A stretch of 64,000 bases of DNA from a bacterium (GTDB lineage: Bacteria; Elusimicrobiota; Elusimicrobia; UBA1565; UBA9628), in contig JAKAQO010000002.1 of the NCBI GenBank assembly GCA_021822495.1, forward strand, positions 208,667 through 272,666, written 5' to 3'. Numbering within the stretch: position 1 is the first letter of the stretch; every line of letters starts with the position of its first letter. Below, piece by piece: positions 3,487 through 48,850 of this stretch. The translations under genes were made by a program, and so were the position numbers. Below the pieces are notes generated by a model, which was given only the letters and a program-made list of their open reading frames with translations, ran no database searches and was not told the origin of the DNA.

Positions 3487-4487
3487 TTTAAAATTTCAGA
3501 CGCCAAATCTACTAAATTCATTTTATGATCGACCAAGTCTTCAATATCTTTTTCCGAGACCTTGCTTAAAAAATCACGGTAAAGCCGTCTGGAGACGTAG
3601 AGAGACAATTCTTCCCGGCACTGGTTTTTAAGACGCCTCCGTCCCTCGGAGGTTTCTTTCAAATATTTTTCATGTCGGTCTAAAGACTCAAGGAGAGGCT
3701 CAAGCCCCTCTCCATCACGCGCAGACGCCGCCAAAACCGGAGGCTCCCAAGCTCGAGGCTCTTTTGTTTCGACGAGAACGCCAGCATCCAGACCGCCATG
3801 ATGAAGACGTTCTTGGACAGACAACGACCTCGCTTGCCCCAAACCCAAAGCCGCGCGAATGTCGGAGACCGCCTTATCTTTTCCTTCTAAGTCCGCTTTA
3901 TTGACCACGAATAAATCTCCGATTTCCATGACTCCGGCCTTCATCGCCTGAATTTCATCTCCCAACTGCGGGGTTGTCACATAAACGACGGTATCGGCCG
4001 CGCGCGCAATGGCCACTTCATCTTGACCGATGCCAACTGTTTCAATCAAAATCTTATCGCATCCATAGGCTTCGAGAACATGGATTTGGGAAAAAATGGT
4101 GCCGGAAAGCCCGCCTACCATCCCCCGGGAGGCGATCGAACGGATAAAAACTCCCGTATCCCCGATATGCTCTTGAATGCGCAAGCGATCTCCCAAAAAC
4201 GAACCGCCTGAAATCGGACTGGAAGGGTCCACCGCGAGCATTCCCACTTTTAAATTTCGCTTGCGGTAAAGAGAAATGAGTCGCGAGGATAAGGACGATT
4301 TTCCCACGCCCGGCGGGCCGCAAAGCCCGATTTTTTGCGCGCGGCCTAAATCCTTAAAAAAAGCCCGCAAAATTTCATCGGCTTCTTTCTGTCCATCCGC
4401 CGCCAAGGTCAGGGCTCTTGAAACCGAAACCAAATCTCCGCGCTTGACGCCTTCGATGGCGTCGGAAACCTTGCTATTTTTTTTCAA
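3483..4487 (-). CDS. meaB: Methylmalonyl-CoA mutase-associated GTPase MeaB (ArgK family)
   Basis: G-protein chaperone that guards B12 loading and reactivation of methylmalonyl-CoA mutase. It has 334 residues. The P-loop is [10 protein letters not shown] near residue 59; [12 protein letters not shown] carries the MeaB switch region and VVNKAD is the guanine-specificity NKxD motif. The frame begins with a TTG at 4487, overlapping mcmA2 by 14 bases; no in-frame ATG precedes the conserved N-terminal helix, so TTG is the likely start. Its position directly after the B12-binding subunit fits its role. Confidence 0.95.
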
Positions 4488-4902
4488 GTCTTTCTCTCAA
4501 ATAACCGACAATAGAAGAAAGCGGAGTCCCGGGGCCAAAGACTTGATCGACGCCTTGTTTTTTCAGTTTGGCCACATCCTCATCCGGAATAATTCCGCCG
4601 CCGAAAACGACGACATCCTCCAAGCCTTCTTTTTTCAAAAGCCGAACGACTTCCGGAAAAAGAGTCATGTGCGCCCCCGACAAAAGAGACAAGCCGACCG
4701 CGCTCACGTCTTCCTGAAGAGCGGCATTCGCGATCATCTCCGGAGTCTGTCGGATGCCGGTATAAATGACTTCAAAACCGGCGTCTCTAAGAGCCCGCAC
4801 GATGACCTTGGCCCCCCGATCATGCCCGTCCAGACCAGGTTTCGCGATCAAAACGCGATGAGGCCTCAAATTTGACTCCTGAACATTTCCCGCTTTCACC
4901 AT
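4474..4902 (-). CDS. mcmA2: Methylmalonyl-CoA mutase, separate B12-binding subunit
   Basis: Binds adenosylcobalamin and completes the mutase with the large chain encoded at 7763-9337. It is 142 residues, the size of a stand-alone B12-binding domain. DGHDRG at residues 25-30 is the DxHxxG motif whose His27 coordinates cobalt; GLSLLSGAH and FGGGIIP are the SxL and GG motifs cradling the nucleotide tail. Start ATG at 4902 has a GGAGGG ribosome site 4 bases upstream. The large and small chains are separated in the DNA by pilB and a GAF-HD gene, which is unusual. Confidence 0.95.
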
Positions 4903-13069: not shown

Positions 13070-13636
13070 TTACTCCTTGGCCACGCGCTCAATGTAGGAA
13101 CTATTGCGAGTATCCACCTTAACGCGGTCCCCTTCCTTGATAAAGAGAGGAACCTGAATTTCAAGTCCGGTGTCCAAGGTCGCGGGCTTCATCATGTTGG
13201 AAACCGAATCGCCCTTGATTCCCGGAACGGTGGAAACGACGGTCAAGACGACGTTCGGCGGAAGTTCGATAGCGGTCAGTTTTTCATCAACGTAAACGCC
13301 CAGGACCTGCATATTCTCTTGAAGAAATTTAGACTGGTCTCCCAAGCGTTCTTTCGGAAAAGAAACCTGCTCATAATTTTCCATGTCCATGAACACCGCA
13401 TTGGCGCCTTCGTCATAGATGTATTGTTTTTCCCGACGAGCAACCGGGACATCACGAAATTTGGTTCCTTCGCGATAGGATTTTTCAAACACGTTCCCGC
13501 TGGCTAAGGACCTCACCGTCGCGCGATAGGTGGAACGAGACTGGGACATTCGGTGCTGCTGATAAGAAATAATCTGCCAGAATTGTCCCTCATCCTCAAA
13601 AACAAGTCCCTGCTTAAAGTCCGAAGTCGTAATCAT
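13070..13636 (-). CDS. efp: Elongation factor P with a non-canonical tip loop
   Basis: Ribosome-binding factor that rescues stalls at polyproline. At 188 residues with three beta-barrel domains it is standard; the C-terminal signature (KGDSVSNMMKPATLDTG...VPLFI..GDRVKVDTR...Y..R) is intact. Aligned without gaps to E. coli EF-P, the tip loop that normally reads PGKG is MSQS at residues 30-33, so the modified Lys34 is Gln32. The next residues are R34 and S35. No lysyl-modification enzyme (EpmA/EpmB, EarP) is in the window. ATG 13636 has an AAGGAG site. Confidence 0.95.
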   Translation of the reverse strand: MITTSDFKQGLVFEDEGQFWQIISYQQHRMSQSRSTYRATVRSLASGNVFEKSYREGTKFRDVPVARREKQYIYDEGANAVFMDMENYEQVSFPKERLGDQSKFLQENMQVLGVYVDEKLTAIELPPNVVLTVVSTVPGIKGDSVSNMMKPATLDTGLEIQVPLFIKEGDRVKVDTRNSSYIERVAKE

Positions 13637-46720: not shown

Positions 46721-47782
46721 ATGATAAAAAAAATCAATAAAAGCGCGTTTTTAAAAGAACCCATCGAACACATTGACATCACTAAATTTAATGCAGTCCC
46801 TCTAGTAGAGGCGATGAGTAAAATGGCTTTTTCCGCCCGAGATCTCGCGCGCGCCTCTGAAATCTATGACCGGATGCTCGCCGACCAAGATACCTCAATC
46901 ATTCTTTGCTTGGCGGGGTCATTATTTTCAGCGGGACTTAAAAAAATTGTCTGGGATATGGTCGAAAACAATATGGTGGACGCCATCGTGTCGACCGGAG
47001 CCAATATTGTCGATCAAGACTTTTTTGAAGCGCTGGGAAACAAACACTATAAAGGCAGCAAGTGGGTTGACGACCACGCTCTTCGCGCCGCGCGCGTGGA
47101 CAGAATCTATGACACCTTTATTGATGAAGACGCTTTGGGCGACACCGACAACGTCAGCGCCGAAATTGCCGACCAATTGCCCCCGCGTCCCTATTCTTCC
47201 CGCGAATTCATCATGGAGATGGGAAAATATTTGATGACAAAAGGCAAAATCAAGGAATCGGTAATTTTGTCGGCTTATAAAAAAGGCCTCCCAATTTTTG
47301 TCCCGGCCTTTTCAGATTGCTCCGCGGGCTTTGGGCTTTTACACCATCAATGGCAAAATCCGGAAGAACATGTTTCCATTGATTCGGCGAAAGATTTCGT
47401 GGAACTCGTCAAAGTAAAAATAGCCTCGAAAGAAACCGGACTTCTGATGATTGGCGGCGGAGTTCCAAAAAATTTCGCGCAAGACGTGACCGTTGGAGTC
47501 GAAATGCTGGGGCTGGAACCCAAGATGCACAAATACGCGGTTCAAATTACGGTCGCCGATGAAAGAGACGGCGCCCTTTCCGGTTCCACCTTGAGAGAAG
47601 CCTGTTCTTGGGGCAAGGTAGACACGGTTTACGAACAAATGGTTTATTCCGAGGCAACCCTTGCGCTCCCGCTTCTTGCGTCCTACGCCTATCACAAAGG
47701 GTCCTGGAAAGCTCGCTCCGCTCGCCGTTTTAACAACGTTCTCAAGGCAGAAGAAAGAAAAACTTTATCCACCGCCAAATAA
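46721..47782 (+). CDS. Deoxyhypusine synthase-like protein
   Basis: 353 residues with the deoxyhypusine synthase fold. AGSLFSAGLKKIVWDMV, VSTGANIVDQD and VPAFSDCSAGFGLLHHQ match the NAD/spermidine sites; the catalytic Lys is Lys299 in CSWGKVDT (human Lys329, ...SWGK...). Bacteria lack eIF5A, so such proteins act on small amines, for example as homospermidine synthases. A GGAGG site precedes the ATG. It lies 9 bases before a ureohydrolase gene, a pairing that supports polyamine synthesis. Confidence 0.85.
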   Translation: MIKKINKSAFLKEPIEHIDITKFNAVPLVEAMSKMAFSARDLARASEIYDRMLADQDTSIILCLAGSLFSAGLKKIVWDMVENNMVDAIVSTGANIVDQDFFEALGNKHYKGSKWVDDHALRAARVDRIYDTFIDEDALGDTDNVSAEIADQLPPRPYSSREFIMEMGKYLMTKGKIKESVILSAYKKGLPIFVPAFSDCSAGFGLLHHQWQNPEEHVSIDSAKDFVELVKVKIASKETGLLMIGGGVPKNFAQDVTVGVEMLGLEPKMHKYAVQITVADERDGALSGSTLREACSWGKVDTVYEQMVYSEATLALPLLASYAYHKGSWKARSARRFNNVLKAEERKTLSTAK

Positions 47783-47791
47783 GTCGGCCTC

Positions 47792-48850
47792 ATGGACAAA
47801 AATTTCGATCCGAACTCGGCAGCAACAGAGGATTCCGGAATTTTTGGGCTTCCTTTCAAGGAAGCGGATGCGGCCTTGGTTTATCTTCCCGTTCCTTGGG
47901 AAGCAACCGCTTCTTACGGCGGCGGAACCGCCAAAGCCCCCGCGGCCATTTTTCAAGCGAGCCGCCAAGTCGATCTTTTCGATGGGGAAGTCCGCAAGCC
48001 ATACGAACCGGGGCTTTTTTTCAAACCTGAGTCGAAAAAAATCAGAGAATGGAATAAGACAGCCAAGGCCGCCGCGCAAAAAATAATCGCTCATGGCGGA
48101 GAGGTTTCAAAAAACAAGACTCTTCAAAAATCTTTGGCCCTCGTCAACGGCTTAAGCGAAAAACTCAATGAGGAAGTTTATCAAGAATCGCGCCGCATAC
48201 TCGAAGCAAAAAAAATTCTCGCCGTAATCGGTGGAGACCATTCGGCCCCCTACGGAGCGCTCAAGGCCGCCGCTGAAAAATTTCCCGGGTTTGGAATTCT
48301 TCATTTCGACGCGCATCATGATTTAAGACGCGCCTATGAAGGATTCACCCACTCGCACGCATCTATCCTCTACAACGTTTTGGAAAACATTCCGGTGTCC
48401 CGTCTTGTCCAAGTTGGCATCCGGGATTTCTGCGAGGAAGAGTTTGAATACGCGCGCAAAAAAAGCTCCCAAGTCTCCGTTTTTTACGACGCTCAGATCA
48501 AGGCTTCCCTTTTTTCAGGCGAACCTTGGATGGGGATTGCCTCTCGCATTATTTCTCAACTTCCGGAAAAAATCTGGATTACCTTTGACATTGACGCCTT
48601 GGACCCTCGTTTTTGCCCAAACACCGGCACCCCCGTTCCTGGAGGGCTTGATCTTGACCAAGCCGTCTATCTCATCTCTCTGGCCGTCAAAAACGGGCGC
48701 AAAATTGTCGGCTTTGACCTCAATGAAGTTTCCCCTGGCGCTCATTCTCAAAACGGCGAATGGGACGCAAACGTCGGCGCCCGGCTTCTCTACAAAATGA
48801 CCGCCTGGACATTGGCCAGTCTGGGCCTAAGACCCTACTCAAGACCCTGA
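47792..48850 (+). CDS. Ureohydrolase (agmatinase/arginase family)
   Basis: 352 residues, binuclear manganese hydrolase. Metal ligands are in GGDHSAP, FDAHHDLR and FDIDALDPRFCPNTGTPVPGG; SHASILYN carries the second His. It is longer than typical agmatinases, with an insert around residues 60-120. Agmatine, or another guanidine made by the neighbouring synthase, is the probable substrate, giving urea and putrescine-type amine. It has no obvious ribosome site, so coupling to the upstream gene is likely. Confidence 0.86.
   Translation: MDKNFDPNSAATEDSGIFGLPFKEADAALVYLPVPWEATASYGGGTAKAPAAIFQASRQVDLFDGEVRKPYEPGLFFKPESKKIREWNKTAKAAAQKIIAHGGEVSKNKTLQKSLALVNGLSEKLNEEVYQESRRILEAKKILAVIGGDHSAPYGALKAAAEKFPGFGILHFDAHHDLRRAYEGFTHSHASILYNVLENIPVSRLVQVGIRDFCEEEFEYARKKSSQVSVFYDAQIKASLFSGEPWMGIASRIISQLPEKIWITFDIDALDPRFCPNTGTPVPGGLDLDQAVYLISLAVKNGRKIVGFDLNEVSPGAHSQNGEWDANVGARLLYKMTAWTLASLGLRPYSRP

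Follow-up and report, generated by a model that had tools for sequence, protein, structure and literature searches.

This study focused on efp, the gene for elongation factor P (EF-P), in a 64,000-nucleotide stretch of contig JAKAQO010000002.1 (assembly GCA_021822495.1; hereafter the window) from a bacterium of the class Elusimicrobia, phylum Elusimicrobiota. EF-P eases ribosomes through proline stretches, and the usual account gives it a lysine or arginine tip that is lengthened by modification. The protein encoded in the window carries a glutamine at this tip, in a loop that is altered throughout. The relevant features are listed below, and residues are numbered as in the window protein unless E. 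coli is named.

13070-13636, minus strand: efp, encoding a glutamine-tipped elongation factor P of 188 aa, the sole EF-P found in the genome
13535-13552, minus strand: codons of the beta3-beta4 loop, R29-M30-S31-Q32-S33-R34 (K31-P32-G33-K34-G35-Q36 in E. coli)
13541-13543, minus strand: CAG, the codon of tip residue Gln32, which corresponds to E. coli Lys34

An initial annotation of the window had placed Gln32 at E. coli Lys34, with the proline and both glycines of the loop also changed, and this was borne out by ungapped alignments to solved EF-Ps, in which Gln32 falls on the tip lysine or arginine and no gaps occur across the loop. The loop contains no lysine at all. It was identical in four genus-mates of the source genome and is, therefore, not a sequencing error. 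The remainder of the protein is a standard EF-P, as had also been stated; it is full-length, has all three EF-P Pfam domains (EFP_N, EFP OB and C-terminal), and scored 206.9 bits against the NCBIfam efp equivalog, above the cut-off of 185.8. An AlphaFold model (mean pLDDT 84) was that of an ordinary EF-P, with strands at residues 18-29 and 35-43 and a hairpin tip formed by residues 30-34, and its fold agreed with those of solved EF-Ps, the better matches having TM values of about 0.83-0.92. Where lysine-type proteins have Lys34 and Pro32 (E. coli numbering) the window protein has Gln32 and Met30, it lacks the Arg34 of the arginine type, and its loop is without the insertion that goes with the arginine tip of EfpL (YeiP). 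Glutamine at E. coli position 34 without proline at 32 is the combination of the glutamine tip, referred to here as Q-type, as distinct from the lysine-tipped K-type.

The Q-type EF-P is the sole EF-P found in the source genome (G000, 2.2 Mb), and in nearly all Q-type genomes. G000 gave one match to PF01132 (the EF-P OB domain) and one to the whole protein, and the whole-protein search found the same single Q-type copy in 4/4 genus-mates. The initial annotation had raised the possibility that the window gene is a minor, EfpL-like paralogue and that a second, canonical EF-P is encoded at another locus. A second, longer-loop EF-P does occur in some relatives (f8 genomes and G189), and G000 is only 94.7% complete. 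However, because the window EF-P is the only copy found in its own genome and nearly all relatives, this explanation fails and is scarcely credible; moreover, the efp score is above its cut-off while that of the EfpL model, at 133.6 bits, is far below the 216 required.

Second, divergent EF-Ps were seen in six Elusimicrobiota genomes (L124, L125, L126, L127, L128 and L129); their loop, HTGGGKTGA for example, is extended by about one residue. In two f8 genomes this gene lies 5-6 kb from the glutamine-type gene. Two of these proteins were tested, and scored as generic EF-P rather than as EfpL.

Distribution and origin of the glutamine tip

A total of 294 Elusimicrobiota genomes were searched, and 277 had an EF-P match; the loops examined were those of the closest loci and of genomes selected from most families. 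Glutamine tips were found in families f1, f3, f4, f5, f8, f11 and f13, and in all f2 genomes read but one, while the PGKGG loop was found in f6, f7, f9 and f14, and in the families read outside the class. Loop conservation across the phylum, which the initial annotation had proposed for inspection, proved to be strict: after deduplication there were 88 Q-type sequences with 11 loop variants, and 88/88 conformed to R29-[KM]-S-Q, with R29, S31 and Q32 invariant.

In a tree of 112 EF-Ps, built with the loop columns excluded, all 63 Q-type rows formed one clade (support 98/89) nested within K-type Elusimicrobiota, and in 97% of bootstrap trees a single change accounts for the glutamine tip. The Q-type is derived once, from a PGKGG ancestor that the other Elusimicrobiota have kept. 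Pairwise identity within the clade falls to 39%, yet the only 17 invariant columns include H28, R29, S31 and Q32, and at all six loop positions (29-34) there are zero residues in common between the Q-type rows and 28 Elusimicrobiota K-type rows. Since every one of these positions differs from the K-type, and H28, R29, S31 and Q32 are held despite such divergence, the loop appears to have been rebuilt as a unit and then maintained by selection.

The initial annotation had offered two readings of the altered tip, a new unmodified class or a different modification site at the nearby Arg34 or a serine. As to the first, the change is shared throughout a deep clade, and the glutamine-tipped EF-P is, as judged from the sequences, a real and conserved class that is carried by most bacteria of one Elusimicrobia lineage. 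The second found no positive evidence, and many relatives have alanine in place of R34, but Ser31 never varies and might still be modified. A further statement, that known EF-P tips are lysine or arginine, was incomplete. Volkwein et al. (2019) had already catalogued the tips of 1166 EF-Ps as K 81.1%, R 14.8%, N 2.2%, M 0.8%, Q 0.6% and A 0.5%, and in their set the glutamine tip is never paired with proline at -2 (PMC6544042). Sieber et al. also name glutamine among EF-P tips (PMC11611912). No study of a Q-type EF-P was found, and a literature search on EF-P together with Elusimicrobia yielded only an isoelectric-point survey.

Other unusual tips were encountered among the loci read here. The EF-Ps of families f10 and f12 have the loop HKMAAEEA (tip MAAEEA), without a cation at the tip and with two acidic residues; they are single copy, form one clade, and are odder than the glutamine type. 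In one of these genomes (G122) the count of triple prolines (PPP) was 4 against 6.7 expected. The two genes located were:

L151 (G122), 4001-4555: HKMAAEEA-type EF-P
L152 (G226), 666-1220: HKMAAEEA-type EF-P

One genome of the glutamine-type order (L119, G088) has a PGKGG EF-P that grouped with f14; either the gene was replaced through transfer or the contig was wrongly assigned. The EF-Ps at four loci (L065, L067, L070 and L071), two of which are in Hydrogenedentota records, have the loop ITPGNWRA, with an asparagine tip.

Activity, charge and possible modification of the tip

The most satisfactory explanation, and probably the correct one, is that the Q-type protein does the housekeeping work of EF-P with a re-engineered loop whose glutamine tip is neutral and unmodified. 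In such a scheme the loop would have been rebuilt as a whole, Gln32 would contact the tRNA end through hydrogen bonds, and nearby cations (the invariant R29, together with K30 and/or R/K34 in most members) would supply the charge of the modified lysine. Among the 63 Q-type rows, positions 30 and 34 were occupied by K30/A34 in 18, by M30 with R/K34 in 12, and by K30 with R/K34 in 30; the remaining three, M30/A34, are all from f8, and their genomes carry a second EF-P. There is a hint here that one cation next to the glutamine is wanted.

That the Q-type EF-P works is suggested by indirect signs. Polyproline counts were made on genome samples of 100-264 kb from three Q-type and three K-type genomes, with expected values taken from shuffles. 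Observed over expected PPP was 15/10.9, 12/6.4 and 18/6.2 in the Q-type samples (1.4, 1.9 and 2.9), and 10/10.0, 1/2.4 and 3/1.0 in the K-type samples (1.0, 0.4 and 2.9), all from counts that are small and samples that differ in G+C. No depletion of PPP was seen in the three Q-type genome samples, and the PPP of ValS is retained. Apart from the small counts and uneven G+C, several other observations weigh against a working, unmodified tip. Both Q- and K-type genomes have genes for ABC-F proteins, a group in which some members can relieve polyproline stalls as well. In three f8 genomes the loop is MSQSAA, in which positions 30 and 34 both lack a cation, and although an exchange of charge between these positions (K30/A34 versus M30/R34) is visible, it is seen in only four independent pairs, two of them opposite; these are too few for statistics, which is why the cation preference is put no higher than a hint. 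In E. coli, the EF-P variants K34A, K34M, K34N and K34Q are all without activity, as are P32S and G33S, according to Volkwein et al. (PMC6544042).

The inactivity of K34Q and the presence of ABC-F genes would both be expected if the Q-type EF-P had lost or changed its polyproline activity and served another ribosomal role, leaving the stalls to ABC-F proteins. This is unlikely: PPP was not depleted in the three Q-type samples and that of ValS was kept, the loop is strongly conserved and does not drift, and the K-type relatives carry ABC-F genes equally.

The search for EpmA that the initial annotation had called for found 0/141 genomes of the class over the genX cut-off, the best matches being in frames of LysS/AspS size. 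EarP gave no match in the genomes searched, but the control genomes gave none either, so that this search was without a positive control. Lysine-directed enzymes would have no target amine at Gln32. Two other genes of the window were considered as candidate modifiers:

46721-47782, plus strand: DHS-like gene, placed among the caldomycin (polyamine) synthases by its family score, with a PF01916 match of 316 bits
12347-13036, minus strand: HAD-IA hydrolase by family assignment, directly downstream of efp

The substrate of DHS is lysine, of which the loop has none. In favour of the DHS-like enzyme as the modifier of the Q-type EF-P are its PF01916 match in the window, its presence in most Q-type genomes, and its absence from the f7 K-type genomes listed. 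It was rejected nonetheless, and the idea is very improbable, because its family score is that of a polyamine enzyme, the loop offers it no lysine, and many Q-type genomes (G142, G203, G108 and G206 among them) gave no match to it. Caldomycin, the product of caldomycin synthase, is an intermediate in the formation of homospermidine (PMC10981699). In the window, at 46721-48850 on the plus strand, the caldomycin synthase-like gene is followed by an agmatinase-like gene, a pair that probably specifies a homospermidine route from agmatine.

The HAD-IA hydrolase gene follows efp at most Q-type loci, within about 0-390 bp and on the same strand, although in the f8 genomes and several f4 genomes it is not beside efp. 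At K-type loci, efp is found with accB and aroQ genes (names assigned by eye from sequence). The case for the hydrolase as a Q-specific modifier is weakened by the K-type genome G273 (L113), where the EF-P branches next to the Q clade and the efp-HAD pair is already present. For the same reason the hydrolase gene is not specific to glutamine tips, and the move of efp to this neighbour seems to predate the tip change.

An undescribed modification, whether on Gln32 (for example, methylation), the invariant Ser31 or the invariant Arg29, is a possibility that we rate as rather unlikely. PrmC methylates the GGQ glutamine of release factors, and PrmC-family matches were present in all genomes searched (E<=0.001). 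The invariance of R29, S31 and Q32 across the clade would suit such a modification, and, according to Volkwein et al. (PMC6544042), known EF-P modification enzymes are missing from over half of bacteria. Against it, no modification gene tested tracks the clade: an extra PrmC-like glutamine methyltransferase was not evident, there being one per genome over the cut-off among the matches listed, in K- and Q-type genomes alike; the DHS-like gene is a polyamine gene; and the HAD gene adjoins efp in a K-type genome already.

Significance and comparison with known EF-P types

Taken broadly, it is reasonably likely that the only EF-P of this lineage functions with a neutral glutamine at its tip, and that this tip is either bare or bears a new modification on glutamine or serine. 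In the bare version, the amide and the flanking cations may position the end of the P-site tRNA, somewhat as the GGQ of release factors does. If true, a bare or newly modified glutamine tip would break the rule by which EF-P requires a long cationic tip. Single changes in the loop kill the E. coli protein, yet evolution appears once to have replaced the whole loop and then frozen the glutamine at its tip. Because the tip is strictly glutamine and no tested modifying enzyme fits, the lineage would represent a natural experiment on which tip chemistry EF-P needs, including whether modification is required.

The Q-type resembles the lysine-type (PGKG) EF-P, as modified by EpmA/EpmB in E. coli and as found in other Elusimicrobiota, in its three-domain fold, single housekeeping copy and loop length, and shares about 50% identity with the K-type of Elusimicrobiota. 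It differs in loop positions 29-34, which are R-[KM]-S-Q-[SA]-[RKA] rather than K-P-G-K-G-G, and in that its class is without EpmA. With the glutamine tips of Volkwein et al. it has in common the glutamine at E. coli position 34 and the missing proline at 32; in the available part of that paper those tips are counted, with no loop family, taxon or function given, whereas here they belong to a defined clade with an invariant motif, an origin and a genomic context (PMC6544042). The arginine-type EF-P, which is rhamnosylated by EarP, is similar in lacking Pro32, but its tip is arginine and not glutamine. Finally, EfpL (YeiP) has been reported to be active without tip modification (PMC11611912), as is proposed for the Q-type, but EfpL is a paralogue with an extended loop and an arginine tip, while the Q-type is a sole copy with a seven-residue loop and a glutamine tip.
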